This document shows positions 2 through 14,196 of a stretch of 15,628 nucleotides of DNA, one piece after another (the first letter of the stretch is position 1; every line of letters starts with the position of its first letter). The position numbers were made by a program, and so were the translations under genes. The notes beneath the pieces are model-generated. The model was not told where the DNA came from, ran no database searches, and was given only the letters and a program-made list of their open reading frames with translations. This DNA is from an uncultured Eubacterium sp. (GTDB lineage: Bacteria; Bacillota; Clostridia; Lachnospirales; Lachnospiraceae), in NCBI GenBank assembly GCA_934316925.1, contig CAKREC010000046.1, positions 1 to 15,628 on the forward strand, given 5' to 3'.

Positions 2-298
2 CTGCGTTCAGAAGCCTTTACGCCACTCAATGATATTTATAAACATCTTGTGTATTGTGAAGATGGATCAGATGTGGAAACGGTGATTTCAGCTGGAAAG
101 ATCGTGATGGAACAGGGCAGATTGCTGCACGTAGATGAACAGGCACTTCTGGCGGAACTGGCAGACATGACGGGAGAATTTCAGGAAAGGTTCAAAGATA
201 CAGTAAAAGAGAATGATAAGCTGATGCCATATATAGACGGTATTTATAACAAATGTATCAATGCCTGTCATGAGTATACCTGTAATCTGTTTGTTTAA
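2..298 (+). CDS. ATZ/TRZ-type amidohydrolase, C-terminal fragment (cut by window start)
   Basis: Only about the last 98 codons are present; the reading frame is open from base 2, so the start and catalytic core lie outside the window. The fragment begins FTPLNDIYKHLVYCEDG and continues with a GKIVMEQGRLL strand pattern, which is the closing beta-sandwich of amidohydrolases of the AtzA/TrzN/SsnA/guanine-deaminase group. It aligns along its length with the C-terminus of the complete amidohydrolase at 2726-4249 (there FTPTNDLLNHLVYCENG, then GKTVVKDGKIL), so the two are paralogues. It probably hydrolyses or deaminates a small nitrogen compound, but metal ligands and substrate cannot be judged from this piece. 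It is followed after 21 bases by another amidohydrolase on the same strand, so it probably belongs to the upstream operon. The family call is firm and the function unknown. Confidence 0.85.
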   Translation: MRSEAFTPLNDIYKHLVYCEDGSDVETVISAGKIVMEQGRLLHVDEQALLAELADMTGEFQERFKDTVKENDKLMPYIDGIYNKCINACHEYTCNLFV

Positions 299-319
299 AT
301 TTATAAGGTGGAGAGAAAT

Positions 320-1078
320 ATGAGAAGAATAATTGATATGCATGCACATGTAGATGTATGTGAACCTTTAAACTGGTATGATACTGCGGAAAAACTGATA
401 AAGCTGATGGATGAAGCGGGAATTGAAAAAGCGGTAGTCAGTGCCTACTTGAATCTGCCGGGGCCGGATAATACCTGTGCGGACAGACTTTGGAAGTCTA
501 TTGAACCATATGCGGACAGATTTATGATGTTTATCCGGATGGATCCCTGGTTTGGTGAGGAAGCGATTCGTTTTCTGGAAGATGCCTGTCAAAAGTATCC
601 GATCAGAGGTGTAAAACTGCATCCGGCACATTATACACTGCATCCATATGGAAAACTGACGGTTGATCTTTGCAAAAAAGCAGGAGAGCTTGGCTTACCA
701 GTATTATTTCATTGCGGTGATGAGATGATGTGTCTGCCGCTTCAGATCGGTGCGCTTGCCAGTCAGTGTCCGGAAACAACCATTATCCTGGCGCATATGG
801 GTGGTTATGCACATAACAGAGATGCGATCGAAGTAGCAAAGAAAAATGATAATGTCTATATTGATACATCAGAGGTTCCGCTTTGTTATGAAATAAAAGA
901 GTTCGTAGATGCACTCGGTCCGCAGAAAATTTTCTTTGGAACGGATGCTCCATGCTGTGATCCGCTTGTGGAACTGAAAAAAGTATTGCTTGCGGGACTT
1001 TCGGAAGAAGAACTGGATTATGTATTATATAAAAATGCGGTTCGTGTTATGAGATTGGAGGAAAAACATGATAATTGA
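320..1078 (+). CDS. Amidohydrolase_2-type metal-dependent hydrolase, complete metal site
   Basis: A 252-residue TIM-barrel hydrolase or decarboxylase of the amidohydrolase_2 (ACMSD-like) group. Visible metal or catalytic residues are H8 and H10 in the N-terminal DMHAH motif, the GVKLHP strand near residues 97-102, H131 in VLFHCGD, H159 in ILAHMGG and D209 in FFGTDAP. All five usual ligand positions are filled, so it should be catalytic. The ATG at 320 is chosen over the in-frame GTG at 308 because the AGGTGGAG Shine-Dalgarno at about 306-313 sits seven bases before the ATG and overlaps the GTG. It lies between the amidohydrolase fragment and a second amidohydrolase_2 gene, and overlaps the latter by 11 bases, which points to translational coupling. 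The substrate is unknown; lactone, carboxylate or cyclic-amide hydrolysis are all possible in this family. Confidence 0.85.
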   Translation: MRRIIDMHAHVDVCEPLNWYDTAEKLIKLMDEAGIEKAVVSAYLNLPGPDNTCADRLWKSIEPYADRFMMFIRMDPWFGEEAIRFLEDACQKYPIRGVKLHPAHYTLHPYGKLTVDLCKKAGELGLPVLFHCGDEMMCLPLQIGALASQCPETTIILAHMGGYAHNRDAIEVAKKNDNVYIDTSEVPLCYEIKEFVDALGPQKIFFGTDAPCCDPLVELKKVLLAGLSEEELDYVLYKNAVRVMRLEEKHDN

Positions 1079-1811
1079 TTTTCATACATATGTAGGTCAT
1101 TCTATGTTAGGGCAGCACAGTACAGAAGAGGAGCTGCTTGAAAATATGGAAAAAAACGATATCGGAGTGTCGGTTGTCTGTCCGGTCAAAACAGTTGATC
1201 CATATTTTGAAAAACAAAACAGCTATATTGCGGATTTACAGAAAAAACATGCAGGTAAACTGTATGGTTTTTGCAGGATCGATCCCAACCTGGGAAAGGA
1301 TTCGGAAAATATATTGCTTTCAGCGATCAAAGATTTAAAGCTGAAGGGGCTTTTATTGCATCCGTGGGAGGAGACATTTGCTATTAATGACAAGAAAGTT
1401 TTTCCATTTATGGAAATCTGCGAAGCATATGAACTTCCTGTTTTGGTGGAAACGGGTTATCCATGGCTGTCACATTGTTTCCAGGTTGCAGATCTGGCTG
1501 AAAAATTTCCAAAGATTAAGTTCATTATGTCTCATGGAGGTCAGTTCGACAGCAGCGGTTATTCACTTACGGATGTTGACTATGTCATGGATCACCATAC
1601 TAATTTATACATTGAGACATCCGGGGATTTTTCGGATGAAGGAATCGAAAACATTCCGGTAAGACTCGGAAATAACAGAGTTATCTTTGGTTCTCATTTT
1701 CCATGGTTGAATACGGAACTTGAAATTTACCGGATCAGGAGAGCTTCTCTTTCAGAAGAGGCAAGGGAAGCAATTTATCACAAAAATGCAGAAATATTAT
1801 TAAAATTATGA
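1068..1811 (+). CDS. Amidohydrolase_2-like protein with altered metal site
   Basis: A 247-residue protein of the same fold group as its upstream neighbour, with the pattern IDFHTYVGH at the N-terminus, GLLLHPW near 94-100, FIMSHGG near 152-158 and VIFGSHFPW near 205-213. Compared with the usual family pattern, the HxH pair reads H6-T-Y8, the mid-barrel His position reads VLVETG (E128/T129), and the catalytic Asp of the FGSDFP-type motif is H210. H156 is kept. So three of the usual ligands are changed, although the barrel and its length are intact and there is no frameshift. It may be an atypical hydrolase, or a non-catalytic partner of the protein encoded at 320-1078, whose gene it overlaps by 11 bases. 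The stop codon is followed directly by the palindrome at 1812. Family assignment is good; activity is open. Confidence 0.83.
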   Translation: MIIDFHTYVGHSMLGQHSTEEELLENMEKNDIGVSVVCPVKTVDPYFEKQNSYIADLQKKHAGKLYGFCRIDPNLGKDSENILLSAIKDLKLKGLLLHPWEETFAINDKKVFPFMEICEAYELPVLVETGYPWLSHCFQVADLAEKFPKIKFIMSHGGQFDSSGYSLTDVDYVMDHHTNLYIETSGDFSDEGIENIPVRLGNNRVIFGSHFPWLNTELEIYRIRRASLSEEAREAIYHKNAEILLKL

Positions 1812-1887: not shown

Positions 1888-1910
1888 GCAGGAAAATAAA
1901 AAATAAGCGA

Positions 1911-1944
1911 AGGCGCTAAAGCAAAATGCTTTGGCGCTTTTTTT
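1911..1944 (+). terminator. Rho-independent terminator hairpin, possibly a leader attenuator
   Basis: The left arm GCGCTAAAGCA (1913-1923) and right arm TGCTTTGGCGC (1927-1937) pair over 11 positions, one of them G-U, around an AAA loop. The stem can be extended outward by a G-U and an A-U pair, and the right arm is followed by seven T residues (1938-1944). It could end the upstream amidohydrolase transcript. Because it lies downstream of the only good promoter and just before the AAGGAG ribosome binding site of the creatininase-family gene, it may instead control entry into the operon. Confidence 0.8.
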
Positions 1945-1965: not shown

Positions 1966-2724
1966 ATGGAATATATGATGGAAAATATGACCTGGCCGGA
2001 AGTAAAGGAAGCTATGGAAAAAAAGAGACCATTGCTGTTTATTGTAGGATCCGTCGAACAGCATGGACCGCATCTGCCGATCAGTACAGACCTGACGATA
2101 CCTGTTGAGATCGCAAAGAGAGTAGCTGAAAAGGTAAACGGAATTGTTGCACCAGCAGTACCATACGGATATCGGTCAAAGCCCAGAAGCGGAGGCGGTG
2201 AAAGATTTATAGGTACTTTTTCATTATCTGGTGAAACGCTCATCCATCTGACAAAAGATATTATCAAAGCATATATACAAAAGGGATTTTCAAACATATT
2301 TGTTTTGGACTGGCATGTAGAGAATGTCGAATTCATCAATGAGGGACTGACACTGGCAGTTGAAGAAACAGAAGGATATCAGCGGAAGATCATAGTCGTG
2401 GATAACCCCAACGGACTGGTCGATCCCCAGATCTTAGATGAAATGTTTGAGGATGACTTCCCGGGATGGGATAGGGAACATGCAGCAATATTTGAGACAT
2501 CAATGATGTTGTATTTAAAACCGGATCTGGTCAGACAGGATAAGATAATCAGTGATGAATCTAAAAATTATAAACCATATGATATCTTACCACCGCCGGC
2601 AGATCTTGTTCCGGACAGTGGCGTGTTATGGCACGCAGAGAAGGCATCAAATGAAAAAGGGAAAAAGGCGGCTGAGAGCATGGTAGATGCACTGGCAGAC
2701 ATTATCAGAGAGGAGCTTGGATAA
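1966..2724 (+). CDS. Creatininase-family amidohydrolase
   Basis: A 252-residue metal-dependent cyclic-amidohydrolase. It matches Pseudomonas creatininase, as I recall that sequence, over its whole length: GSVEQHG gives E31 and H33, D42 follows in STD, LDWHVEN gives H117 and E119 (creatininase GHYEN), and GWDREHAAIFETS gives W168 and catalytic H172. The YGYRS...SGGG segment and the C-terminal KASNEKG also match. These fit the two-metal creatininase site better than the GHGGN type of FAPy deformylase or MftE relatives. The known reaction is reversible opening of creatinine to creatine. However, the substrate-flap Trp (W154 in Pseudomonas) appears to be P148 here, so another small cyclic amide or ureide is possible. 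AAGGAG at 1951-1956 sits nine bases before the ATG. It is the first gene of the long operon, directly behind the hairpin leader; the next gene starts one base after its stop. Confidence 0.85.
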   Translation: MEYMMENMTWPEVKEAMEKKRPLLFIVGSVEQHGPHLPISTDLTIPVEIAKRVAEKVNGIVAPAVPYGYRSKPRSGGGERFIGTFSLSGETLIHLTKDIIKAYIQKGFSNIFVLDWHVENVEFINEGLTLAVEETEGYQRKIIVVDNPNGLVDPQILDEMFEDDFPGWDREHAAIFETSMMLYLKPDLVRQDKIISDESKNYKPYDILPPPADLVPDSGVLWHAEKASNEKGKKAAESMVDALADIIREELG

Positions 2725-2725
2725 G

Positions 2726-4249
2726 ATGAGAACATTAATTCAGAATGCAACAATTTTATATGGAACAGAAATGGAAACAAAGAAAGCAGACCTTTTGATC
2801 TGTGATGAGGATATCACAAAGATTGCGGATCATATTGCAGCAGAACCGGATATGGAAATCATTGATGCAACAGATCTGCTTGTAGCACCGGGACTTTGCA
2901 ATGCACATCTTCACTCTGATGAGAACCTGTTTAAAGGGATGACCGATAATCTGCCGCTGGAGTTATGGATGTTATATACTTATCCAACCTTGAAATACGG
3001 ACCATTTTCCAAGCGGCTGATCTATCTGAGAACCATGCTTGGTGCAATGGAGATGATCAAGCACGGTGTTACACTGGCACAGGATGATGTTTCTGAATAT
3101 CCATCCGCTACACTGGAGGGAACAGATGCAGTCATGGAGGCCTACACAGATCTGGGAATGCGTGCAAGTGTCACGACCAACTTGTGTGATAAACAGTGGA
3201 AAGATAAATTACCTTATCTGTCAGATATCTTACCGGAGGAAGTAAAGAAATGTTATCCGCCTGCTGCTGACAGACAGGAAATGTATGATCTGATCCACGC
3301 AATGGTTTCCAAGTGGCATAAAAAAGGCGGTATGACAAATGTTGTATTAGCACCGGTCGCACCACAAAGAGTAACAGACCAGTTCTTTACGGATATGTAC
3401 GGACTGGCTGAAAAATATGATCTGCCGGTACATACTCATGTGCTTGAGACGAAGATGCAGCGTGTCACAGGACAGGAATTTTATAAGACAACCCTGATCC
3501 AGCATATGAAGGATATCGGAGTATTGGGAGACAGAACAACGATCGTACATTGTGTATGGGTAGATGATCACGATATTGAGCTGATCGCAAATGCAGGTGC
3601 ATCTGTAGCACACAATCCGGCCAGCAATACAAAGCTCGGAAGTGGCATACTTCCTTATGCAAAATTGCATGAAGCAGGCGTCAATCTGGCACTTGGAACG
3701 GATGGCATGAGCAGTAATGACAGCCAGAGCATTTTTGAAGCCATGAAGATCACAGCACTGTTACATAAAGTGACAATGCCTGATTATAAGAGATGGCCGA
3801 ATGCAAAAGATGTCTTTAAAGCTGCTACAGTTGGTGGAGCAAAAAGTACAAGACGTATTGATCATACAGGCTCGATCGAGGAAGGAAAGAAGGCAGATCT
3901 TGTCTTTTATGATCTGAACTCTATTGCATTTACACCGACAAATGATCTGTTAAACCATCTTGTATATTGTGAAAACGGAGAAGACATTGTCAGAGTTATG
4001 GTAAACGGTAAAACAGTTGTCAAAGACGGCAAGATACTGACAGTAGATGAAAAGGCGATCTTAAACGAGTTAAGAGCCGAGCTTCCCGGATTTTATGAAA
4101 AATATAAAGCTGCCAAAGAATGGGCTGATAAGATGTTCCCATATGTACAGCAGGTATATGAAAAATCATATACACAGTCAACAAACCTGAACAGATTATC
4201 CGGTAATGATGCGGAATGGGTAAAGATTCAGGGATTTCTGAACAAATAG
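2726..4249 (+). CDS. ATZ/TRZ-type amidohydrolase (deaminase-like)
   Basis: A 507-residue cytosolic amidohydrolase of the AtzA/TrzN, SsnA and methylthioadenosine-deaminase group. An N-terminal beta-sandwich is followed by a metal-dependent barrel with H61 and H63 in NAHLHSDE, H238 and E241 in HTHVLET, H275 in IVHC, and D326 in GTDG; the C-terminal sandwich ends with GKTVVKDGKIL. The HxxE pair is typical of family members that release ammonia from a ring carbon, so deamination of a heterocycle or guanidine-like compound is the best guess; guanine or creatinine deamination cannot be told apart here. The ATG at 2726 is chosen because AGGAG at 2711-2715 precedes it and because an upstream in-frame start would lie inside the previous gene. 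It is a paralogue of the fragment at 2-298. The gap to the ABC gene is nine bases. Confidence 0.85.
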   Translation: MRTLIQNATILYGTEMETKKADLLICDEDITKIADHIAAEPDMEIIDATDLLVAPGLCNAHLHSDENLFKGMTDNLPLELWMLYTYPTLKYGPFSKRLIYLRTMLGAMEMIKHGVTLAQDDVSEYPSATLEGTDAVMEAYTDLGMRASVTTNLCDKQWKDKLPYLSDILPEEVKKCYPPAADRQEMYDLIHAMVSKWHKKGGMTNVVLAPVAPQRVTDQFFTDMYGLAEKYDLPVHTHVLETKMQRVTGQEFYKTTLIQHMKDIGVLGDRTTIVHCVWVDDHDIELIANAGASVAHNPASNTKLGSGILPYAKLHEAGVNLALGTDGMSSNDSQSIFEAMKITALLHKVTMPDYKRWPNAKDVFKAATVGGAKSTRRIDHTGSIEEGKKADLVFYDLNSIAFTPTNDLLNHLVYCENGEDIVRVMVNGKTVVKDGKILTVDEKAILNELRAELPGFYEKYKAAKEWADKMFPYVQQVYEKSYTQSTNLNRLSGNDAEWVKIQGFLNK

Positions 4250-4258
4250 GAGGCTGAC

Positions 4259-5023
4259 ATGAACGACCGAAAAGATAAAAACACGATCATAAAAATAGAT
4301 GGATTGAAAAAAGTTTACGGAGATTTGGTTGTTCTAAATGGTATTGATTTAGAAGTCAAAGAGGGAGAAGTTGTCTGTCTGATCGGCCCAAGCGGATCTG
4401 GCAAAAGTACACTTCTCAGGTGCTTGAATTACCTGGAGCAACCGACAGATGGAACAATAGAAATGACAGGATATTCTTTAAAAGGGGGTGAAACAAAGGC
4501 AAATAAAAAGAATGCTGTAGAAATCAGAAAACATGCAGGAATGGTGTTTCAACAGTTTAATCTGTGGCCGCATATGACAGTACTGGAAAATGTGATCGAA
4601 GCACCGCTCCGCGTAAAAAATGTGAATAAACAGGAGATTACGGAAAAAGCAATCGAATTGTTAAGAAAAGTCGGACTGGCAGAGAAAAAGGATGTTTATC
4701 CGACTACCCTTTCAGGCGGACAGCAGCAACGTGTTGCGATTGCAAGAGCACTTGCCATGGAACCGGAGATCATGTTGTTTGACGAACCAACATCGGCACT
4801 TGATCCGGAACTGGTAGGAGAAGTACTAAAGGTAATGCGTGATCTGGCTGAAGACGGTATGACAATGATCGTCGTTACACATGAAATGGGTTTTGCACAT
4901 GATGTAGCAGATAAAGTAGTATTTATGGACTATGGTCGCATTCTCGAAGCAGGGACACCGGATGAAGTGATCCGCAATCCAAAGCATGACAGGACAAGGC
5001 AGTTCCTGAGTCGAGTTTTGTAA
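4259..5023 (+). CDS. ABC transporter ATPase, polar amino acid type
   Basis: A 254-residue ATPase of the HisP/GlnQ group that powers the importer encoded by the next three genes. Walker A is GPSGSGKST (43-51), the Q-loop is in VFQQFNLWP (97-104), the signature is LSGGQ (151-155), Walker B is [12 protein letters not shown] (171-182) and the H-loop His is H208 in VVTHEMGF. All motifs are intact and the length is usual. The stop of the amidohydrolase, TAG, is part of the AGGAGG-type ribosome binding site. Its place inside a catabolic operon suggests that the imported compound is a substrate of these enzymes. The subfamily is normally used for polar amino acids and related small molecules; the substrate here is inferred only from context. 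Confidence 0.95.
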
Positions 5024-5050
5024 TATATTTACATTAAGGAGGAAAAAAGT

Positions 5051-5971
5051 ATGAAAAAACTAATCGTGACAACTTTATTATCAACGGTGCTTGCATTTGC
5101 ATTAACAGGGTGCGGTTCAAGCGGAGCAACAGAGGAAGCATCAACAGCGGAAACAACAGATGCTGCAACAGAGGACGTAAGTTCGGACAGTGCTGCAGAT
5201 GAAACAGGAGAATCTGGTGGACTGACAGTTGCTGATATCCAGAAAGAAGGTGTTCTTCATATCGGAACAGATCTGACATTTGAACCATATGAGTATCTGG
5301 ATGATTCTGACAACCCGACAGGCTATGATATCGCGATCTGGAACAGAGTAGCTGAAGAAATGGGTGTTGAGGTGAAATTTGAAGATCTTGCATTCTCCGG
5401 AATCTTTGCCGGACTGGAAGCCGGAAAGTTTGATGCAGCAGGCTGTTATTGCAATATTACGGAAGAAAGACTGAGTAAATATACTTTTGCCATTCCGGTT
5501 TCTTTTGATGAATTTTATCTGGTAAAGAGAACAGATGATGATTCCATTCAGTCACTTGATGATGTAAACGGAAAGAACGTAGGTGTTGAACTTGGTACAG
5601 CACCGGTTGATGCGTTAGATGCCTATGCAGCAGAAAATTGTGCAGACGGTGTAGAAGAGACTTCTTATGATTCATCCGTGAACGCTTTTCTGGATCTGTT
5701 GAACGGAAATGTAGATCTTGCCTGTGAGTCCTATACAATCTGCAAACAGCAGATTGATGCATCCGAAGGAAAACTTGAGTTTGTCGGTTCTATTTCAAAA
5801 CCGGTATATGGTTCCTTTGCATTCCGTAAGGAAGATAAAGAACTGGCTGATTATGTAAGTGGTGTTATCAAGAAAATGAAAGAAGATGGATCATTGAAAG
5901 AACTGCAGGAAGAATATTGTGGTGTTACATATGATGATCTTCCGGAAGATGAATCCGAATATATACAGTAA
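5051..5971 (+). CDS. ABC transporter substrate-binding lipoprotein (SBP_bac_3)
   Basis: A 306-residue lipoprotein. The signal peptide ends in lipobox LTGC with C21 as the lipidated Cys, followed by a flexible Thr/Ser/Glu/Ala-rich linker to about residue 56. The binding fold then starts GVLHIGTDLTFEPYEY, with GYDIAIW (91-97), ITEER (136-140), GVELGTAP (178-185) and NGNVDLA (218-224). R140, which binds the ligand carboxylate in HisJ-type proteins, is kept. The pocket serines around the SSLSIT position of HisJ are replaced by C132, Y133, C134 and N135, and the Asp that usually binds an alpha-amino group is S227, with E226 next to it. The ligand may therefore not be an ordinary amino acid. A strong AAGGAGG precedes the ATG. 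It works with the ATPase before it and the two permeases after it. Confidence 0.93.
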   Translation: MKKLIVTTLLSTVLAFALTGCGSSGATEEASTAETTDAATEDVSSDSAADETGESGGLTVADIQKEGVLHIGTDLTFEPYEYLDDSDNPTGYDIAIWNRVAEEMGVEVKFEDLAFSGIFAGLEAGKFDAAGCYCNITEERLSKYTFAIPVSFDEFYLVKRTDDDSIQSLDDVNGKNVGVELGTAPVDALDAYAAENCADGVEETSYDSSVNAFLDLLNGNVDLACESYTICKQQIDASEGKLEFVGSISKPVYGSFAFRKEDKELADYVSGVIKKMKEDGSLKELQEEYCGVTYDDLPEDESEYIQ

Positions 5972-6008
5972 ATGATTTTACAGACAAGAATGATCTGGAG
6001 GTGTGAGC

Positions 6009-6659
6009 GTGAGTAATATCTATTTATACTCTTTACCACTGCTTTTGAAAGGAGCATTGATAACGGCTGAAATTGCTGTTGCAGGGATGATATTTGGCAC
6101 TTTGCTCGGAATCCTGCTTGTATTACTCCGTATTTCAAATGTCAGGCTGTTTGAAGGGCTGGTAACTTTATATGTAAGTTTTATCAGAGGAACTCCGTTC
6201 CTGTTCCAGATCCTGATTGTCTTTTATTCCCTGTCTGTTATGGGCTTGGATCTTTCGAATACATTAACCGGTATTATCGCAGTCGGATTAAATACAGCCG
6301 CGTTTATCTCGGAAGTGTTCCGAAGCGGACTGAATGCAATACCAAAGGGACACATCGAGGCAGCGGAAGCACTTGGTATGTCAAAATGGGCAATTTTTAT
6401 CAGGATCAAGATGCTGCAGGTTTTTTACATTGTAAAACCACAGATGGTAAGCGAATTTATTAATGCAATAAAGGTTACACCGATCCTTTCCACGATAGGA
6501 GTTCTGGAAATAACCAGAGTAGCGACGAGAATCGTATCTCGTAGACATCATCCGGTTCCGGTATATATTATCGCATTTGTTTTGTATTTTATCATCTGTT
6601 CACTTTTAGAGATCGTACAGAACAAAATGCAAAGCTCAAATATCACCGGACAAAAATAA
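6009..6659 (+). CDS. ABC transporter permease, His/Glu/Gln/Arg family (first)
   Basis: A 216-residue inner-membrane subunit with hydrophobic segments at about 10-40, 64-80, 84-104 and in the C-terminal third. FIRGTPFLFQ (58-67) and the EAA loop HIEAAEALGMSKWAIFIRI (115-133) are the hallmarks of the polar-amino-acid permease family, and the EAA loop docks on the ATPase. The start is GTG at 6009: the GGAGG at 5997-6001 is seven bases upstream of it, whereas another in-frame GTG at 6003 is only one base from the ribosome binding site. It probably pairs with the permease encoded at 6676 to make a heterodimeric channel. The two permease genes are 16 bases apart. Confidence 0.93.
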   Translation: MSNIYLYSLPLLLKGALITAEIAVAGMIFGTLLGILLVLLRISNVRLFEGLVTLYVSFIRGTPFLFQILIVFYSLSVMGLDLSNTLTGIIAVGLNTAAFISEVFRSGLNAIPKGHIEAAEALGMSKWAIFIRIKMLQVFYIVKPQMVSEFINAIKVTPILSTIGVLEITRVATRIVSRRHHPVPVYIIAFVLYFIICSLLEIVQNKMQSSNITGQK

Positions 6660-6675
6660 AAAGCGAGGGAAAATT

Positions 6676-7317
6676 ATGGATTTATTAGAGAAAATAATGC
6701 CGTCATTACTGCAAGGAATGAAGGTAACGATCATTGTATCAATAATAGGTCTTATACTGTCACTTTCTCTGGGATTTATTTTTGCATTATTGCTGCGGAC
6801 AAGGAATAAGATCATTGAAGGTGTTCTGAACTGGTATATCAGATTATTCAGAAATACACCATTCATGATACAGGTTTATCTGGCATATAATCTGCCGCCG
6901 CTTCTGGGACTGCATCCCAAGGCAATCGTTCTTGGAACCATTATATTAGTATTGTATGAGGCTGCTTATATGACAGTTACGATCAAGATGGGTTTTGATT
7001 CCGTTTCAAAGGGACAGGAGGAAGCAGCAATCTCTCTGAATATCCCATATCCAACCAGAGTGATACGGATATTGCTTCCGCAGGTCATGAAGGTGGTCAT
7101 GCCTACAATAACAAGTTTGCTGATCGTTACAGTAAAAGACTCTTCTATCTTGTCAGTGATCACGATCAAAGAGCTTACTATGCAGGCAACAGGGTGTGCA
7201 TCAAGTACTTTTATGCCGTTTGAGGTTTATATCATTGCAGGATTGTTGTACTGGGTTCTGAATATTTGTATCGAACTTGCTACAAAGTTGATCAACAGAA
7301 AATATCTTTCATTTTAA
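6676..7317 (+). CDS. ABC transporter permease, His/Glu/Gln/Arg family (second)
   Basis: A 213-residue inner-membrane subunit. It has the LFRNTPFMIQ segment (57-66), and its EAA loop QEEAAISLNIPYPTRVIRI (114-132) differs from the canonical EAA-x3-G by having Asn where Gly is common. Hydrophobic segments lie at about 15-40, 62-75, 82-102 and 140-200. It is similar in plan to the preceding permease but clearly divergent, which fits a heterodimer rather than a recent duplication. GCGAGGG lies before the ATG. It is the last gene of the transporter block and is followed by the FAD oxidoreductase after 43 bases, the longest gap in the operon; I saw no terminator or promoter in that gap. Confidence 0.93.
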   Translation: MDLLEKIMPSLLQGMKVTIIVSIIGLILSLSLGFIFALLLRTRNKIIEGVLNWYIRLFRNTPFMIQVYLAYNLPPLLGLHPKAIVLGTIILVLYEAAYMTVTIKMGFDSVSKGQEEAAISLNIPYPTRVIRILLPQVMKVVMPTITSLLIVTVKDSSILSVITIKELTMQATGCASSTFMPFEVYIIAGLLYWVLNICIELATKLINRKYLSF

Positions 7318-7360
7318 AAATGAAATTGGTTGAAAATGGTGAAAGGATAGGTCGTATCGT

Positions 7361-8527
7361 ATGAAAAAGAAAAAAATAGGAATTATTGGTGGAGGCATAT
7401 CCGGAACTGCCCTTGGATATCATTTAAGCCTTTATGATGAAGCAGAAGTAACACTTTTTGAAAAAGACCGGATCGGCTGCGGAACAACAGCGAAATCTGC
7501 CGGAACGGTTTGTCTTTTTGATGATTCATTAAAAAACCGGTATTGGGATGTCAGGTTATATGGATTTGAAACCTATCTCAAAATGGAGGCAGAAGAGAAA
7601 GGATCCGCCGGATTTGATAAGACCGGTACACTGGTTGTTGCAACTTCACCGGAGGTTGAGGATACCATAAAGACCGGTATTGCACTTGCAAAGGCAGCAG
7701 GTTATACCGGGGAATATATTGTCGATAAGGAACGTATCCGTGAAATCCTTCCGGGGATTCAGACAGACGGAATCCTTGGTGCGGGTTATACGAAGGATGA
7801 TGGTTACTTTGATGGCACAATGATCTCCAATACATTTGCCAAGAAGATGGAGCAAAACGGTGGAACTATCCATACAGGTGTGAAAGTCGTAGAACTTATC
7901 AAAGCAGACAATGAGGTCAAAGGGCTTAAGACAAGTGATGGCAAGACATGGGACTTTGATGTTGTTGTGGACTGCACCGGTCCATGGAGCAGATTTACGG
8001 GGGAGATTGCAGGAATTGATGTACCGATCTGGCATACAAAGGCGGAAGCGTTTTTCCTTGCACCGCCGGTAAAAAGAGATGGCTATATCTATCCGATCAT
8101 CAAATACCCGGCATTTTACGGATTGAGAGCAGGAGATAACCTGTTTATCTGTAAATCACATCTGTCCATGAATCTGGACGATCCGATGCATGCAGGACAG
8201 TGGAATCCGGATGAATTACCACAGACAGGCGGAACGGATGATTACTTCATAGAATTTTTGCTGGATCAGATGGATTCTTATATTCCGGAGCTTGCAGATT
8301 CCGGTCTGGTTTCTTCCTGGCTTTCCTACAGAGCGGAAACAAGAGACTTTTTACCGATCGTAGGGGAAACACCTCTCAAAAATTACCTGCTGGCAACCGG
8401 TTATGGCGGAAACGGTGTGATCGAAGCACCTGCTGTATCACGGGATCTGGCAAAATTCATCATGTGTGGTGAATCCACCATGCTTTTGGAGGAATGGGCA
8501 TTCAAGAGACTGTTGACGGAAAAATAG
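7361..8527 (+). CDS. FAD-dependent oxidoreductase, DAO family (sarcosine/dimethylglycine dehydrogenase-like)
   Basis: A 388-residue flavoenzyme. The N-terminal Rossmann motif is GIIGGGISGTALGYHL (GxGxxG at 10-15), E34 probably contacts the FAD ribose, and the C-terminal FAD loop is LLATGYGGNGVIEAPA, as in the glycine/sarcosine/D-amino-acid oxidase group. At the site where dimethylglycine and sarcosine dehydrogenases attach FAD covalently through His, this protein reads GTTAKSAGT with K45, so the FAD is probably not bound that way. The genes for both ETF subunits follow at once (10 and 4 base gaps), which says that it works as a dehydrogenase passing electrons to ETF rather than to oxygen. Candidate substrates are sarcosine, another N-alkyl glycine, or glycine. 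Glycine oxidation would give glyoxylate, which is also the predicted end product of the ureide genes further down. The substrate is not shown by sequence. Confidence 0.87.
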   Translation: MKKKKIGIIGGGISGTALGYHLSLYDEAEVTLFEKDRIGCGTTAKSAGTVCLFDDSLKNRYWDVRLYGFETYLKMEAEEKGSAGFDKTGTLVVATSPEVEDTIKTGIALAKAAGYTGEYIVDKERIREILPGIQTDGILGAGYTKDDGYFDGTMISNTFAKKMEQNGGTIHTGVKVVELIKADNEVKGLKTSDGKTWDFDVVVDCTGPWSRFTGEIAGIDVPIWHTKAEAFFLAPPVKRDGYIYPIIKYPAFYGLRAGDNLFICKSHLSMNLDDPMHAGQWNPDELPQTGGTDDYFIEFLLDQMDSYIPELADSGLVSSWLSYRAETRDFLPIVGETPLKNYLLATGYGGNGVIEAPAVSRDLAKFIMCGESTMLLEEWAFKRLLTEK

Positions 8528-8537
8528 AGGTAGCAAT

Positions 8538-9329
8538 ATGAAAATAGCAGTTTGTATCAAGATGGTACCGAATTCGGATCAGGTAAAGATCGATCCTAAA
8601 ACGCATAATCTGATCCGCGAAGATGTGGAGATGGTTATCAATCCTTCCGATATGAATGCGCTGACAGAAGCCATACATATCCGGGAACTTGCCGGTGGAA
8701 CTATTGATGTTTTTACAATGGGTATTGCAGATGCAAAAAATATTTTATATACGGCGCTGGCAATCGGGGCTGACAGAGCTTTTCTGGTAACGGACAGGGC
8801 ATTTGCCGGCGGGGATTCCCTAGGTACAGCACGTGTCCTTGCGACGGCAGTAAAAAATACAGATGCGTATGATCTGGTATTGTGTGGTGCGCTTTCTGCT
8901 GATGGTGCAACGGGACAGGTCGGACCAATGATGGCAGAACTCCTTGGACTGCCTTCTGTATCACTCATCAAAACAGCAGAGGAGATCACCGGGGAGTGTA
9001 TCACGGTTTCCAAAAGTTATAAAGGTCAGAAATTGTTTCTAGAGCTTCCCATGCCATGTCTTTTTACAGTAGGACTAGGTGTAAACCAACCGGTTCTTCC
9101 GACGCTGAGAAGTCAGATGAAGGCAAAAAAGAAAGAAATTCAGGTGCTCACAAATACAGAGCTTGGTATGGATCCATCTGTCATCGGAAAAGCAGGTGCG
9201 TTATCTGTTGTGACAGATACCTACGAGAGTGAAAAAAGCAGCACAAGAAGCATTATGCTGGAAGGAGACGCAGGGGCAGCAGCTGAAAAAATAAAGGATC
9301 TGATGGATGAGATAATGGAAAAGGGGTGA
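8538..9329 (+). CDS. etfB: Electron transfer flavoprotein, beta subunit (EtfB/FixA)
   Basis: A 263-residue ETF beta subunit starting MKIAVCIKMVPNSD, with the adenine-nucleotide-binding segment CGALSADGATGQVGPMMAELLG (about residues 116-137) and the closing pattern NQPVLPTLRSQMKAKKK. Length and motifs are usual. With EtfA, encoded four bases downstream, it forms the heterodimer that takes electrons from a flavin dehydrogenase, here almost surely the DAO-family enzyme encoded directly upstream. Whether the second nucleotide site holds AMP (ordinary ETF) or FAD (bifurcating ETF) cannot be decided by eye. No ETF-quinone oxidoreductase, ferredoxin or acyl-CoA dehydrogenase gene is nearby, so the electron acceptor is outside the window. 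Confidence 0.95.
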   Translation: MKIAVCIKMVPNSDQVKIDPKTHNLIREDVEMVINPSDMNALTEAIHIRELAGGTIDVFTMGIADAKNILYTALAIGADRAFLVTDRAFAGGDSLGTARVLATAVKNTDAYDLVLCGALSADGATGQVGPMMAELLGLPSVSLIKTAEEITGECITVSKSYKGQKLFLELPMPCLFTVGLGVNQPVLPTLRSQMKAKKKEIQVLTNTELGMDPSVIGKAGALSVVTDTYESEKSSTRSIMLEGDAGAAAEKIKDLMDEIMEKG

Positions 9330-9333
9330 GCAG

Positions 9334-10293
9334 ATGCCAAAAAGTATTTATATTTATGCAGAACAATTTGATGGGCAGGCAGATCCGTCGGCGGCAGAAT
9401 TGGTATATGCAGCAAAAAAATTGAATACCGAAGCTGAGATCACTGTTTTTGCATTTGGAAAAGAAGAAGATGTGGATCTGATACAGCAGTTGTCTTATGA
9501 TGGTGTAAATATCCTGTTGATCGATGGAGATGGGATTGCTTTTTATGAAGAAGAAAAACGTGCAAAGATCATAAAACAGGTCATTTCGATGAGAAAGCCT
9601 GATTATGTGCTGATTCCTGCCATTGAATGCGTAAAACCTGTATTTGCAAGAGTGGCAGCAGCTCTGCAGATCGGAATGACAGCAGATTGTACGGAGCTTT
9701 TTATGGAGGATGGTGTATTTTACCAGAAAAAGCCTGCATTTGGTGAGAATGCAATGGTCATTACAAAGGAAGAAGGGCCTGCAGCCTTTGTGACCGTTAT
9801 AGCCGGTGCGTATCCGCCGGAGCAGAATGGAACCCCTCGGTCCAGAGAACATATGCGTATTTCACTGCCGGAACAGTCCGTTATCCTGAAAAAAAAGGAA
9901 GCGTATACTTCTAAAAACCTCCAGGATGCGGAGATACTGATTTCACTCGGTCGGGGAGCGGCACAGACGGAAACGATAGAGCTGGCAGAAAAGCTTGCCG
10001 GAAAATTAGGCGGTTTTGTTGGCGGTACAAGACCATTGGTAGATTTTAACCTGATACCGTTTGAAGCACAGATTGGTCAGACCGGATGCACGGTACATCC
10101 TAAAATATGCCTGTTTTTCGGCGTATCGGGAGCTATTCAGCATACAGAAGGTGTCAAAGATGCAAAGCTGACGGTTGCGGTAAACACGGATGAAAAGGCA
10201 GGCATTTTTTCCTTTGCACAGTATGGCGTAATACTTGATTGTAAAGAGGTTTTGACAGCACTTGATAACCTGTATGGAGGCGACGGTGCATGA
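9334..10293 (+). CDS. etfA: Electron transfer flavoprotein, alpha subunit (EtfA/FixB)
   Basis: A 319-residue ETF alpha subunit. The C-terminal FAD domain is complete: LGRGAAQTE (205-213), GGTRPLVD (230-237), AQIGQTG (245-251), GVSGAIQH (263-270) and VNTDEKAGIF (283-292). The N-terminal domain has no added ferredoxin module. AAGGGG-GAG just before the ATG at 9334 supports the start. Its stop overlaps the ATG of the next gene in an ATGA, so it is translationally coupled to the M20 amidohydrolase; this ties the electron-transfer and ureide parts of the operon together. The partner is EtfB. The likely electron donor is the DAO-family enzyme; the acceptor is unknown. Confidence 0.95.
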   Translation: MPKSIYIYAEQFDGQADPSAAELVYAAKKLNTEAEITVFAFGKEEDVDLIQQLSYDGVNILLIDGDGIAFYEEEKRAKIIKQVISMRKPDYVLIPAIECVKPVFARVAAALQIGMTADCTELFMEDGVFYQKKPAFGENAMVITKEEGPAAFVTVIAGAYPPEQNGTPRSREHMRISLPEQSVILKKKEAYTSKNLQDAEILISLGRGAAQTETIELAEKLAGKLGGFVGGTRPLVDFNLIPFEAQIGQTGCTVHPKICLFFGVSGAIQHTEGVKDAKLTVAVNTDEKAGIFSFAQYGVILDCKEVLTALDNLYGGDGA

Positions 10294-11516
10294 TAGAAGA
10301 ACTGGAGCTGATAGAAGAACATATCAAAAAAGGAATAGAAGAAACCGGGCAGTTTACCGCAACAAAAGGAGCGGGTGTGACGAGGCTTCCTTTTACGTCG
10401 GAAGCAATGAAATGTGCAGATTATATTTCCTATAAAATGACAGAACTCGGTCTGCATGTATCGCAGGACGCTTCCGGTGCTGTGATCGGTGTTATGGAGG
10501 GCAGATCGCCGGAGCGGATCATGATAGGATCTCACCTTGATTCTGTACGTCATGGCGGTGCTTATGATGGGATGGCAGGTATTTTGTGTGGCATGGAAAT
10601 TGCTTCGCATTATAAAAGAAATAACATCATACCGCCTTATACATTGGAAATCGTTGCTACCAACGATGAGGAAGGTGCCAGATTCGGCGGCGGTTATTTT
10701 TCAAGTAAAGCTTTTCTCGGTATGTGGACAGTGGATGATCTGAAGAGAAATAAAGATCGCGACGGCATTTCATATTATGAAGCAATGAGAAGTGCAGGGC
10801 TCGATCCGGAAAACATACGATCCGCGGAGAGAAAAAAAGAAGGATGGAAAGGTTTCGTAGAGATTCATATAGAGCAGGGACCGGTGTTGGAAAAGGCGGA
10901 AAAAGAGCTTGGTATCGTCAGTGCGATTGTCGCAATGGAGCGATTTTATGTGACGATAACAGGACGGGCCGATCACGCCGGAACAGAACCCATGGAAATG
11001 CGCCTCGATGCCATGATGGAAGGCGCTAAGATCATGGATAGGATCAATACCTATGTCAGAGCACATGATGGCATGGTCGGAACGGTCGGAGAGGTGCATT
11101 TGTTTCCGAATGAAATCAATGTCGTTCCTGAGAAACTGATCTTCTCGGTTGATCTGCGATCAACCAAAGAAGAAGAACTGACAGCGTGTAAGGAGTTGAT
11201 CAAAGTCTGTCTTGCAAAGGCGCAGGATAAAGGCTTTGATACACTCCTTACACAAACACTCAGTAATTCTGTGACTAAAATGAAAGCGGAGTGGATGGAA
11301 CAGCTGGCAGTCTCGTCGGAGCATTTGCAGTTTTCCAACATGGTTATGCATTCAGGCGCCGGCCATGATGCGGCTGTGATCGGAAAAGAGATCGATACGG
11401 TTATGCTTTTTGTACCATCGATTGGTGGAAGAAGTCATAACCCGGATGAAAAAAGTGATGAAACTGTTCTTGCCAAGGCAGTTTTGGTCATAATTGACTT
11501 TTTAAACAGGATCTAA
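10290..11516 (+). CDS. allC: M20-family amidohydrolase, probable allantoate amidohydrolase
   Basis: A 408-residue dinuclear-metal amidase of the hydantoinase/carbamoylase branch of M20. Ligand and catalytic residues are visible: H82 and D84 in GSHLDSV, D93 in AYDGMAG, E127 and E128 in NDEEGARF, H193 in EIHIEQGP, H229 in RADHAG for the lid domain, and H382 in SHNPDE. The HSGAGHDA segment (354-361) is as in AllC, but N-carbamoyl-L-amino-acid hydrolases share it, so the substrate call rests mostly on context: the next genes encode ureidoglycine aminohydrolase and a ureidoglycolate amidohydrolase-like enzyme. The expected reaction is allantoate + H2O to ureidoglycine, CO2 and ammonia. The start codon overlaps the etfA stop. 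An N-carbamoyl-sarcosine or other carbamoyl amidase remains possible. Confidence 0.8.
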   Translation: MIEELELIEEHIKKGIEETGQFTATKGAGVTRLPFTSEAMKCADYISYKMTELGLHVSQDASGAVIGVMEGRSPERIMIGSHLDSVRHGGAYDGMAGILCGMEIASHYKRNNIIPPYTLEIVATNDEEGARFGGGYFSSKAFLGMWTVDDLKRNKDRDGISYYEAMRSAGLDPENIRSAERKKEGWKGFVEIHIEQGPVLEKAEKELGIVSAIVAMERFYVTITGRADHAGTEPMEMRLDAMMEGAKIMDRINTYVRAHDGMVGTVGEVHLFPNEINVVPEKLIFSVDLRSTKEEELTACKELIKVCLAKAQDKGFDTLLTQTLSNSVTKMKAEWMEQLAVSSEHLQFSNMVMHSGAGHDAAVIGKEIDTVMLFVPSIGGRSHNPDEKSDETVLAKAVLVIIDFLNRI

Positions 11517-11536
11517 AACAGAAAGGTGGTATACAT

Positions 11537-12298
11537 ATGGGATACAGAAAAGATTTATTGGCAACAAGAGCACAGGTGAAACCGGGTTTATGGGCAGTCA
11601 TTCCGCCGGATGGACTTGTCAATAATGTAATTCCTTATATCACAGGATGTAAGGTCAGCATTGTTGCATCCCCTAAGATGGGTGCGGGTTTTGTACAGTA
11701 TGTGGTAAAAGCCACGAAGGACGGCAAGACAACAAACCCGTTCGGAACGGGAGCTATGGAAGAAAGCTTCTTATATGTAGTAGAAGGTACAGTAAAGGTC
11801 AGCATTGACGGTACATCTTATGATATGACAGCGGGCGGTTATGGCTTTGCACCGGCTGGTGTTGGTATTTCGTTTGAAAACAGCGGAGAAGAGGCAACTA
11901 TTTTACTGTATAAACAGAGATATATTCCGCTGGAAGGACATGAGCCGTATGTGGTAACTGGCAATGTCAATGATATTCCGTTTTCTGTTTATGATGAAAT
12001 GGAAAATGTTTTTATTAAAGATCTGTTGCCGAGTGACCTGGGATTTGATATGAATATGCATATTTTATCCTTTGATCCGGGAGCAAGCCATTCTATTGTA
12101 GAAACACATGTGCAGGAGCATGGTATGTATATTCTTTCGGGAGAGGGTATGTATCTGCTGGATGAAACATGGATGGGTATCAAAAAGGATGATTTTGTAT
12201 GGTTTGGTGCTTACTGTCCGCAGTGCAGCTACGGTGTCGGAAGAGAACCATTTGCCTATATCTATTCCAAGGATTGTAACCGCGACGTGGAGATTTAA
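11537..12298 (+). CDS. allE: (S)-ureidoglycine aminohydrolase, bicupin
   Basis: A 253-residue two-cupin enzyme that converts (S)-ureidoglycine to (S)-ureidoglycolate and ammonia. It matches E. coli AllE, as I recall it, from end to end, with runs such as RKDLLATRA, LGFDMNMHILSF, ETHVQEHG and the closing YIYSKDCNRDVEI. The Mn ligands are in the second cupin: E189, H191, H195 and Q229, with the same spacing as in the plant enzyme. AAGGTGG at 11523-11529 is seven bases before the ATG. It sits between two M20 amidase genes that would carry out the steps before and after it, a physical order equal to the pathway order. This is the most specific enzyme assignment in the window and anchors the ureide reading of its neighbours. 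Confidence 0.95.
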   Translation: MGYRKDLLATRAQVKPGLWAVIPPDGLVNNVIPYITGCKVSIVASPKMGAGFVQYVVKATKDGKTTNPFGTGAMEESFLYVVEGTVKVSIDGTSYDMTAGGYGFAPAGVGISFENSGEEATILLYKQRYIPLEGHEPYVVTGNVNDIPFSVYDEMENVFIKDLLPSDLGFDMNMHILSFDPGASHSIVETHVQEHGMYILSGEGMYLLDETWMGIKKDDFVWFGAYCPQCSYGVGREPFAYIYSKDCNRDVEI

Positions 12299-12300
12299 CT

Positions 12301-13548
12301 ATGGATAAAACGCAGGGATCAAACATTGAAAAAATGATCTGCCAGATCAATGCATATCGGGAAGAAGGCTATGAAGGGACAACCAGACATGCATTATCAA
12401 AGGTGGAACAACGGGCAAGAGGTTATGTATGTGAGTACATGCAGCAGTTAGGTATGCAGGTTTTCACAGATGGCATCGGAAATATATTAAGCTGTTATGA
12501 AGGCACGGATCCAACGCTTGCACCGGTCTGGACAGGCTCTCATATTGATACGGTGACAAATGCGGGAATGTTTGACGGCGTTGCAGGGATCGTTTCGGCT
12601 TTAGAGGCGATCCGGTATTTACGCGAAGAGGGAATCCGCCCTCTTCGCAGTATTTATGTGAATGTTTATACTTGTGAGGAGTCTACAGTTTTTGGTTCGG
12701 GCTGTATTGGATCAAGGGCACTTGCAGGGTATCTGAAAAAAGAAGAACTCGGACAGATAACAGATCTTGCAGGGAAGTCACTTCTGACTTATTTACAGGA
12801 ATGCGGTTTCTATAAGGAAGAAAACTGCAGACATTTATTTGGAAAGGATGTATCTCATCCAAAAGCAAGTGTGGAGCTGCATATTGAACAGGGTCCGTGG
12901 CTGGAGAGAGAAAAAAAGACGATCGGAATCGTGGACAGTATCTGCGCACCGACCAATATCATGGTCACGCTGCGCGGTGTGCAGTCTCATGCCGGCGGAA
13001 CTTCCATGGCGGAGCGGGCAGATGCGTTTGCAGCACTTGGGGAAATTTCAGTGGAGCTGGAAAAGATCATTGCACAGGGAAAGAGCACATATCATACAGG
13101 TACGATCGGATATGTATCTGTAATGCCAAATGCCGTAAATGTCATTCCGGGAGAAGTCACATTTTCGGTAGATATCAGGGATTGCGATGCGGTTTCCAAA
13201 ACAGAGCTGGAAGATATTCTGATCGACCGGATGAAACAGATATGTAAAAAGCGATGTATTGCGTTATCTTATAAAGTAGAGTGTCGTGATACACCGATGC
13301 CCTGTGATAAAGAGATAGAAGCTGTGATTGAGAATTCCTGTATCGAGCATAAGATTCCCTATATGCATATGATCAGCGGCGCATATCATGACAGTCTGTT
13401 TATCGGGAAATTATGTCCCGTTGCAATGATCTTTGTGCCAAGTCATAATGGGATCAGCCATAGTCCAAAGGAATGGACTGATTTTGCGGATATAGAAAAA
13501 GCGACAATATTACTGAAGGATGTATTATGTCAGCTTGCATCAGAGTAA
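12301..13548 (+). CDS. M20-family amidohydrolase, probable ureidoglycolate amidohydrolase
   Basis: A 415-residue M20 amidase with H81 and D83 in GSHIDTV, D92 in MFDGVAG, E126 and E127 in CEESTVFGSGCIGSRALAG, H194 in LHIEQGP, H230 in SHAGGTS and H387 in SHSPKE. The EESTVFG...CIGSR pattern and SGAYHDSLFIG (359-369) match plant ureidoglycolate amidohydrolase (EEPTRFG...CLGSR and AYHDSLF) rather than the EEGARF and SGAGHDA forms of the other M20 protein in this operon. The expected reaction is ureidoglycolate to glyoxylate, CO2 and two ammonia. It starts two bases after the allE stop, with TGGAG inside the allE end. If right, the three genes form a complete hydrolytic route from allantoate to glyoxylate. 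An alternative is another carbamoyl amidase. Confidence 0.78.
   Translation: MDKTQGSNIEKMICQINAYREEGYEGTTRHALSKVEQRARGYVCEYMQQLGMQVFTDGIGNILSCYEGTDPTLAPVWTGSHIDTVTNAGMFDGVAGIVSALEAIRYLREEGIRPLRSIYVNVYTCEESTVFGSGCIGSRALAGYLKKEELGQITDLAGKSLLTYLQECGFYKEENCRHLFGKDVSHPKASVELHIEQGPWLEREKKTIGIVDSICAPTNIMVTLRGVQSHAGGTSMAERADAFAALGEISVELEKIIAQGKSTYHTGTIGYVSVMPNAVNVIPGEVTFSVDIRDCDAVSKTELEDILIDRMKQICKKRCIALSYKVECRDTPMPCDKEIEAVIENSCIEHKIPYMHMISGAYHDSLFIGKLCPVAMIFVPSHNGISHSPKEWTDFADIEKATILLKDVLCQLASE
12623..12648 (+). repeat. Perfect 10-bp inverted repeat inside the ureidoglycolate amidohydrolase-like gene
   Basis: GCGAAGAGGG (12623-12632) and CCCTCTTCGC (12639-12648) are exact complements around a six-base loop AATCCG. 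It encodes residues in REEGIRPLRS. No T-run follows, so it is not a classical terminator. It may be an mRNA structure or chance. Confidence 0.7.
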
Positions 13549-13563
13549 AGGAACCGGACAGAA

Positions 13564-14196
13564 ATGAGACAGATCGTATTTTTGCTGGAAATGATCGGAA
13601 CGATTGCTTTCGCCTCCTCGGGAGCAATGGTAGGAATTTATAAAAAAATGGATCTATTTGGCGTTATTGTAATGGCCGTCACCACAGCAGTTGGAGGCGG
13701 CCTTGTCCGTGATATGATACTTGGGTATCTGCCGCCTGCAGCATTTACAGATCCGATTTATGTGATCCTTTCAACTGCCTGTGCGACTTCCTTATTCATT
13801 ACGATATATAATAGGAAACATTTCTCGGGTAAGAAAGTAATTTTTCTATATGAAAAGACCATGACGATCATGGATGCGGTCGGTCTTGGTGTTTTTACAA
13901 CACTTGGAATAGAAAAAGCCTATGAAAACGGTTATCAAAACGAATTATTCTTTCTTGTATTTCTTGGAATTCTAACAGGTGTTGGCGGGGGCGTGATCAG
14001 GGATGTGCTGGCGCAGAAAACACCTCTTATCTTTAGAAAACAGATCTATGCATGTGCTTCTCTGATCGGCGCATTATTTTGTGCATTGTGTATGCCTTTT
14101 TCAAAGGATATTGCTATGATCGGCGGAACCTGTCTTGTGATCGTGATCAGGCTTCTGGCAGTTGTGTATCACTGGAATCTTCCCAAAATGAAGTAG
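13564..14196 (+). CDS. UPF0126/TRIC-type membrane protein (glycine-transporter family)
   Basis: A 210-residue integral membrane protein with about seven hydrophobic segments. It is built from two related halves, each with a GGG-x-x-RD signature: AVGGGLVRDMILG in the first and GVGGGVIRDVLA in the second. This is the YicG/YadS (UPF0126) family, related in fold to TRIC cation channels; the family domain is also called a glycine transporter. It is the last gene of the operon, 15 bases after the M20 gene, with AAGGA before the ATG. Placed at the end of a route that would make glyoxylate and possibly glycine, it may move glycine or a related small molecule. This role is an inference from the family name and position. 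No terminator was seen in the 22 bases before the convergent gene. Confidence 0.9.
   Translation: MRQIVFLLEMIGTIAFASSGAMVGIYKKMDLFGVIVMAVTTAVGGGLVRDMILGYLPPAAFTDPIYVILSTACATSLFITIYNRKHFSGKKVIFLYEKTMTIMDAVGLGVFTTLGIEKAYENGYQNELFFLVFLGILTGVGGGVIRDVLAQKTPLIFRKQIYACASLIGALFCALCMPFSKDIAMIGGTCLVIVIRLLAVVYHWNLPKMK

Follow-up and report, generated by a model that had tools for sequence, protein, structure and literature searches.

Conserved Linkage of a Flavoprotein–Etf Pair to Ureide Genes in an Uncultured Eubacterium, with a Rarer Amidohydrolase Module Beside Them

Introduction

A set of 13 genes on contig CAKREC010000046.1, from an uncultured Eubacterium sp. of the family Lachnospiraceae, raises the question of why a flavoprotein oxidoreductase and its electron-transfer flavoprotein (Etf) stand among genes for ureide breakdown, and of what a creatininase-like gene contributes to the same row. 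The window, meaning the whole stretch of DNA analysed, is 15,628 nucleotides long. Two answers emerge from the comparison with other genomes. The flavoprotein–Etf pair is linked to ureide genes across many loci and looks like a partner of the last hydrolytic step. The creatininase-like gene belongs to a separate amidohydrolase module, which is rarer than the ureide core and is joined to it in the window strain. The following six genes carry the main argument:

7361..8527, + strand: DAO-fold flavin adenine dinucleotide (FAD) oxidoreductase (DAO), related to sarcosine, dimethylglycine and glycine oxidases
8538..9329, + strand: EtfB, nearest to the Etfs of bifurcating complexes, with Gly123 and the motif DGATGQVGP
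9334..10293, + strand: EtfA
10290..11516, + strand: M20a, a hydantoinase/carbamoylase family amidase, proposed allantoate amidohydrolase
11537..12298, + strand: AllE, (S)-ureidoglycine aminohydrolase (TIGR03214, 334.5 bits, cut-off 200)
12301..13548, + strand: M20b, a hydantoinase/carbamoylase family amidase, proposed ureidoglycolate amidohydrolase (UAH), best Protein Data Bank match 4pxe

Linkage of the Flavoprotein Genes to Ureide Genes

A contig scan combined with a DAO alignment yielded 61 DAO loci, whose gene maps were made by tblastn. The scan covered candidates that matched one of two short peptide patterns. By record title, the loci come mainly from Lachnospiraceae and other Clostridia, with further representatives in Selenomonadales, Synergistaceae, Spirochaetes, Anaerolineales, a Deltaproteobacterium and a Dadabacterium; the nearest DAO relatives with titles belong to metagenome-assembled genomes of Lachnospiraceae, Eubacteriales and Clostridia. 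An earlier note, made from the window sequence without database searches, had placed the redox genes and the ureide genes in one nitrogen-scavenging operon. In relatives, these two blocks are not separated at random: an M20, AllE or AllB gene is present in 60 of the 61 loci, the exception (L047) being a 5.5-kb contig. Among the 60 loci with a usable DAO match, EtfB lies directly after DAO in 54 and an M20 gene directly before it in 46. A PucR-like gene occurs in 32 of the 61. In L048, L049, L051 and L057, a ketol-acid-reductoisomerase-like gene is found among AllE, carbamoyltransferase and DAO genes.

The same linkage is visible at the level of genomes. AllE scores above its cut-off in all 28 DAO genomes searched. 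Within the family of G022, the Lachnospiraceae genome that holds L001 and was picked as centre genome for its DAO, 18 of 299 genomes have AllE above cut-off and 8 have DAO (E 1e-80 or better), and all 8 fall within the 18 (in G163, two contigs each carry a part of DAO). With G022 set aside, the 7 DAO genomes among 298 all lie within the 17 AllE genomes (Fisher p 5e-10, relatedness uncorrected). By this nesting, DAO belongs to allantoin-type genomes. The ureide nitrogen use proposed earlier is supported. Of 30 DAO genomes, 15 pass the cut-off for AllD and 17 that for AllG, which belongs to the oxamate route.

Across 61 DAO sequences, the window included, 144 positions are at least 97% conserved. 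One of these is Arg324, which is retained in 61 of 61 and aligns with the arginine of GLRPQ in 7cyx, presumably the residue that binds the substrate carboxylate in the glycine oxidase ThiO. DAO scores far below the cut-offs of both the soxB model (54.2 vs 529.45) and the ThiO model (98.8 vs 250.8). The first structure model, based on 22 sequences of at least 74% identity, had a local confidence score (pLDDT) below 50 at the presumed active site, and a second one with distant rows added reached 86.4. Matches to the predicted fold assign the superfamily only, not the substrate, and the relatives listed are amine enzymes rather than hydroxy-acid enzymes.

EtfB has glycine at position 123 in 56 of 56 sequences, the window included, and this residue is a criterion for bifurcating-type ETF (PMC12630350). 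The published β-FAD motif of bifurcating ETF is DGDTAQVGP (PMC9232219), with which the window motif agrees at 7 of 9 positions. Of the 56 sequences, 49 have alanine and 2 have aspartate at position 124.

The Ureide Core and Its Redox Partners

The allantoate-to-glyoxylate set suggested in the earlier note gains support from AllE, which exceeds its curated cut-off, and from the two M20 proteins, which fall into different clades. In the family scan, the NCBIfam subfamily model PRK09290.1-5, labelled allantoate amidohydrolase (cut-off 399), gives 398.6 for M20a and 402.4 for M20b, and the AllC equivalog model (cut-off 597.75) gives 265.7 and 266.2. The YgeY model reaches 22.6 against a cut-off of 321 for window proteins. 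The closest solved relative of M20b is the plant UAH (4pxe), and no UAH-named model is among the NCBIfam matches listed for it. A family scan of the window genes found no allantoinase.

The M20 tree comprised 84 proteins (the two from the window, E. coli AllC and 81 from fetched loci), and matches with less than 60% coverage or fewer than 330 residues were left out. Its rows fall into three clades: M20a with 26 rows, which include M20s from AllE/AllD loci, AllC with 4, and M20b with 54 (support 96/87). A redox partner, either DAO–EtfBA or a 2-hydroxyacid dehydrogenase, accompanies all 54 M20b rows: 46 directly precede DAO, 4 (the window and L001–L003) share a locus with DAO–EtfBA, and the remaining 4 adjoin a 2-hydroxyacid dehydrogenase.

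Position of the Redox Step

DAO–EtfBA looks like a late-acting system that works with the M20b step. This placement is suggested by the redox partner found for every M20b row, by the DAO-less genomes and by the glyoxylate carboligase result. Ten AllE genomes have no DAO. Six of them have AllD, and the stretch of 14 to 20 kb examined on their AllE contigs contains no M20b; the four without AllD have AllE, M20b and the 2-hydroxyacid dehydrogenase, which resembles glyoxylate reductase and phosphoglycerate dehydrogenase and stays below every curated cut-off. These last four clusters, L089, L090, L093 and L097, belong to genomes of the G022 family, and the one in L089 is followed by an alanine-aminotransferase-like gene. 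Glyoxylate carboligase is above cut-off in none of the 30 DAO genomes, while the E. coli control passes, so glyoxylate arising from M20b would need another outlet. The oxidoreductase, whose fit the earlier note left open, looks like the partner of M20b rather than part of the front end.

In forward direction, glycine oxidase produces iminoacetate, which is dehydrated hydroxyglycine. A glycine-oxidase-fold protein working in reverse with Etf as donor would yield glycine, and the last gene of the set fits such a product. This gene and the importer genes are as follows:

4259..5023, + strand: ATPase of an ATP-binding cassette (ABC) importer, polar amino acid type
5051..5971, + strand: ABC solute-binding protein, family 3 (PF00497)
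6003..6659, + strand: ABC permease 1, GTG start
6676..7317, + strand: ABC permease 2
13564..14196, + strand: PF03458 'Glycine transporter' family membrane protein (YadS/YicG-like), last gene (152.7, Pfam gathering score 23.5)

The preferred explanation of the gene set as a whole, to which we give slightly less than an even chance, is a ureide-fermenting operon in which DAO–EtfBA reduces the M20b product to glycine. Family membership, gene order and content, and the conserved linkage are observed directly. The scheme takes the substrate of AllE from its curated model and infers every other substrate, as well as the direction of DAO and its electron donor, from gene families and context. The ABC importer would take up a small substrate. 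M20a would remove one carbamoyl group from allantoate, a waste product of purines rich in nitrogen, to give ureidoglycine, which AllE would convert to (S)-ureidoglycolate. M20b would then hydrolyse (S)-ureidoglycolate to hydroxyglycine, in equilibrium with iminoacetate, or to glyoxylate and ammonia. DAO, with its glycine/sarcosine-oxidase fold, would run reductively, fed by reduced nicotinamide adenine dinucleotide (NADH) through EtfBA, and turn the imine into glycine, which the PF03458 protein may carry across the membrane. Hydroxyglycine is indeed given as the primary product of UAH (PMC3793230).

Several observations weigh against this explanation. As M20b passes the allantoate amidohydrolase model, its UAH role depends on the nearest structure. 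The 20-row and 34-row halves of the M20b clade may not form one clade, because two long branches meet there; the redox-partner statement is true for each half separately. DAO and the 2-hydroxyacid dehydrogenase are not strict alternatives, since five DAO loci (L014, L016, L026, L029 and L030) hold both. No Etf was detected beside DAO in four distant loci, L049, L051, L056 and L057, in DNA extending 8.9 to 10 kb downstream and 0.4 to 10 kb upstream (0.4 kb upstream in L056). The strongest match to glyoxylate carboligase among the DAO genomes, at 513.6 bits in G024, is below the cut-off of 711.2 and carries two internal stops. The aspartate 124 of the published bifurcating motif (PMC9232219) is alanine in the window. 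PF03458 was found in 1 of 72 other loci searched (L042), and 'glycine transporter' is a Pfam label; the two E. coli members carry only a family name in RefSeq. Finally, loci from Synergistaceae, Spirochaetes and Anaerolineales pair DAO with a carbamoyltransferase and often with carbamate kinase.

This last observation bears on the main competing explanation, in which DAO–EtfBA is an ETF-linked ureidoglycolate or ureidoglycine dehydrogenase that forms oxalurate in place of AllD, M20b hydrolyses oxalurate and Etf disposes of the electrons. Carbamoyltransferase and carbamate kinase beside DAO would be expected here if oxalurate undergoes phosphorolysis. Such pairs include the Synergistaceae locus L037, with the order AllE-DAO-EtfB-EtfA-carbamoyltransferase-carbamate kinase, and the Anaerolineales and Spirochaetes loci with carbamoyltransferases, to which L048 and L049 add carbamate kinase. 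The half of the DAO genomes that miss AllD above cut-off also suits a stand-in; in the other half, which have AllD, it would be redundant, and a plain replacement of AllD is weakened. Furthermore, the closest solved structure of M20b is UAH, the listed fold relatives of DAO act on amines and not on hydroxy acids, and the neighbour of M20b where DAO is missing has its resemblances, below cut-offs, among glyoxylate reductase and phosphoglycerate dehydrogenase. On this balance, the oxalurate route is rather unlikely.

A further step beyond glycine formation would be that DAO–EtfBA is an NADH-driven, electron-bifurcating iminoacetate reductase, which converts the hydroxyglycine released from ureidoglycolate to glycine and reduces ferredoxin at the same time. 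The final step of allantoin degradation would then conserve energy in anaerobes of several phyla. This extension is unlikely on present evidence.

The Front Module

The start of the gene set and the DNA upstream of it hold a group of amidohydrolase genes:

2..298, + strand: C-terminal part of a Trz/Atz-type amidohydrolase, truncated at the window edge, of the family shared with the full-length gene at 2726
308..1078, + strand: AH2a, PF04909 amidohydrolase with metal-ligand motifs retained
1068..1811, + strand: AH2b, PF04909 paralogue with several metal-ligand positions lost
1966..2724, + strand: creatininase-like hydrolase (TIGR04448, 300 bits, cut-off 235), metal-ligand positions retained, Trp154 absent
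2726..4249, + strand: Trz/Atz-type amidohydrolase with deaminase-like metal motifs HLH, HVLET, VHC and GTDG; no curated model passed

In the preferred explanation, the creatininase-like and Trz proteins, with AH2a and AH2b upstream, would be an accessory module that turns a cyclic amide or amidine into a compound able to enter the ureide core. The creatininase-like protein retains E34, H36, D45, H120 and E122 in the alignment, which we take to be the metal ligands of creatininase. Residue 154 of the wild-type P. putida enzyme is tryptophan, presumably with a role in the substrate site. In the corresponding column of 129 aligned rows, proline stands in 99 (the window included), tryptophan in 21 and other residues in 9. 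In the group of the window protein, DWHxEN and DNPNGL replace the creatininase sequence around Trp154. Among solved structures, the window protein matches P. putida creatininase chains best, and these carry Ala or Phe at 154. Creatinine is doubtful as a substrate because Trp154 is missing, and the creatinine theme of the earlier note is weakened.

A complete creatinine route would have the creatininase-like protein open creatinine, Trz deiminate creatine, M20 take the carbamoyl group and DAO–EtfBA oxidise sarcosine. The TIGR04448 score and the resemblance of DAO to dimethylglycine and sarcosine enzymes suit it. Nonetheless, tryptophan is replaced in the clade of the window protein, the sarcosine-oxidase model is missed by a wide margin, and the route gives AllE no role. 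Moreover, within the DNA examined, a creatininase-like gene is near DAO in 1 of the 61 loci (L057), compared with 60 for ureide genes. This route is highly improbable.

The same count, together with the other genes found upstream in L001 and L003 (the nearest DAO relatives with upstream DNA, at 85% identity), speaks against one conserved 13-gene unit. Relatives of the creatininase-like protein are scarce: 1 of 299 genomes in the family of G022 (E 1e-40), 3 of 391 in its class (E 1e-45), 3 of 298 in the class of G020 (E 1e-50) and 1 of 6 in the family of G020, namely G020 itself. The six matches other than G020/L057 have Trp at 154 and no adjoining ureide block in the DNA fetched. Contigs were also compared by identical size, as a proxy for the same contig, among the best 120 homologues per list (of 402 for the creatininase-like protein, 168 for AH2a and 555 for DAO). 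Among those of at least 5 kb, 13 of 49 creatininase-like contigs match an AH2a contig, and none of 74 DAO contigs matches either list; below 5 kb, each pair of lists has one match, attributed to chance. These shared sizes suggest that the creatininase-like gene and AH2a travel together, largely apart from DAO.

Both modules together were seen in two places only, the window and the Anaerolineales locus L057. The latter repeats the order Trz-AH2a-AH2b-creatininase at 42, 51, 41 and 46% identity, adjoining DAO, AllE, two carbamoyltransferases and an AllB-like gene. Near AllE-type genes in L049, L052 and the genome of L004, AH2-like genes alone represent the front module. A chance juxtaposition of two unrelated operons in the window strain, with no common pathway, would agree with the missing front module in the nearest DAO relatives and with the lack of size matches for DAO. 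It does not explain why the front module also adjoins DAO and AllE in L057, nor a 12.2-kb block without any gap above 43 bases, and it is considered quite unlikely.

Another possibility concerns the front module alone, which might open and deiminate a creatinine-like ring bearing a ureido group (imino-allantoin type) directly to allantoate. The chemistry suits the order of lactam opening, deimination, M20a and AllE, and the module adjoins ureide genes in both places; otherwise, the idea is pure inference. L057, however, also carries the AllB-like gene, its Trz homologue points to another kind of substrate (see below), and no nutrient compound of this type is known to us. This makes the idea improbable.

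At 5702-8236 of L057, one reading frame joins the Trz homologue to a PfkB-type kinase domain, a hint that the front module may act on a nucleoside- or sugar-linked compound. For window proteins, the SsnA model gives 168 against a cut-off of 444. An imidazole (xanthinase-type) pathway, in which PF04909 would act as decarboxylase and the creatininase-like protein would hydrolyse imidazolone, was chemically attractive and was left aside. AH2a retains the metallo-amidohydrolase motifs DMHAH, HCG and GTD, while the overlapping AH2b is degenerate (DFHTY, ETGY and GSH). The split recurs in L057, and the visible part of AH2b in L049 agrees with it. Judged by these motifs, the two are apparently a catalytic protein and a metal-free partner.

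Operon Layout and Borders

The 13 genes lie on the + strand from 1966 to 14196, with 12 intergenic gaps of 1, 9, 27, 31, 16, 43, 10, 4, -4, 20, 2 and 15 bases. This list takes 2726, preceded by GAGGAG, as the start of the deaminase-like gene instead of the mechanical open reading frame start at 2687. The coordinates bear out what the earlier note had said of strand, of gaps of at most 43 bases and of two tight junctions (the 4-nucleotide overlap of EtfA and M20a, and the 2 nucleotides from AllE to M20b), to which the 1 nucleotide between the creatininase-like and deaminase-like genes adds a third; its domain assignments also stand in family scans. From this layout, we infer that the 13 genes probably form one operon.

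On the same strand, a 154-base gap separates the set from the cut Trz/Atz-type gene and the two PF04909 genes upstream. The other features of the borders are:

1859-1887: promoter-like site just upstream of the hairpin, consensus match only
1909..1941, + strand: terminator-like hairpin (15 pairs, 6 GC, T-run), directly before the creatininase-like gene
14219-15487, - strand: RhuM-family protein (PF13310, 367 bits), convergent with the operon

The gap with its hairpin and promoter-like site makes the left border plausible, both calls being no more than matches to a consensus. Across the whole window, promoter scanning gave 28 sites against 38.1 in shuffles, and terminator scanning 16 against 9.6. 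Rfam and tRNA scans found nothing.

Relation to Known Systems and Significance

The all regulon of E. coli serves the anaerobic use of allantoin, in a pathway that divides in two at ureidoglycolate (PMC11326118). It comprises AllB, AllC, AllE, AllD, AllFGH and AllK, with AllA-Gcl-GlxR-GlxK as the glyoxylate branch. Like the window, it combines AllE with an M20 amidohydrolase. The window differs in having M20b in place of AllA and an extra redox step by DAO–EtfBA, with no Gcl above cut-off in the 30 DAO genomes. The plant ureide pathway uses AAH, UGLYAH and UAH, that is, the same three step types by M20, cupin and M20 (PMC3793230); plant UAH leads to glyoxylate, while in the window a linked flavoprotein system would act next.

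Bcd-Etf, CarCDE and LctBCD of anaerobes are the top scorers for the window EtfB and EtfA, and Gly123 is kept in the window. The predicted Etf partner in the window is a DAO-fold enzyme and not an acyl-CoA dehydrogenase. It also differs from the lactate dehydrogenase of the p-cresol-methylhydroxylase type (PMC9232219). From sarcosine/dimethylglycine dehydrogenase with ETF and from ThiO, the window DAO is set apart by its low soxB and ThiO scores and its ureide context. The reductive uric acid pathway (XdhD, YgfK, SsnA, HyuA, YgeW, YgeY and YgeX; PMC12507026) is likewise an anaerobic use of purine nitrogen by amidohydrolases and M20 enzymes, but its product differs and no scanned window protein passes the models of its genes.

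In most mammals, uricase converts uric acid to allantoin for excretion (PMC12507026). The open-licence papers listed in literature searches yielded no description of a conserved ureide core with a flavoprotein–Etf redox step or of anaerobe glyoxylate disposal from allantoin without glyoxylate carboligase, and no paper tying DAO–EtfBA, creatininase or ETF to ureide genes. The conserved flavoprotein–Etf pair might serve as a marker that tells a glyoxylate/glycine branch from the oxamate branch, and at the glyoxylate step it represents a directly testable enzyme. If it is a bifurcating iminoacetate reductase, it would be, to our knowledge, the first case of a DAO-fold enzyme paired with a bifurcating-type Etf. 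It would also provide a third fate of ureide carbon beside oxamate and tartronate semialdehyde.

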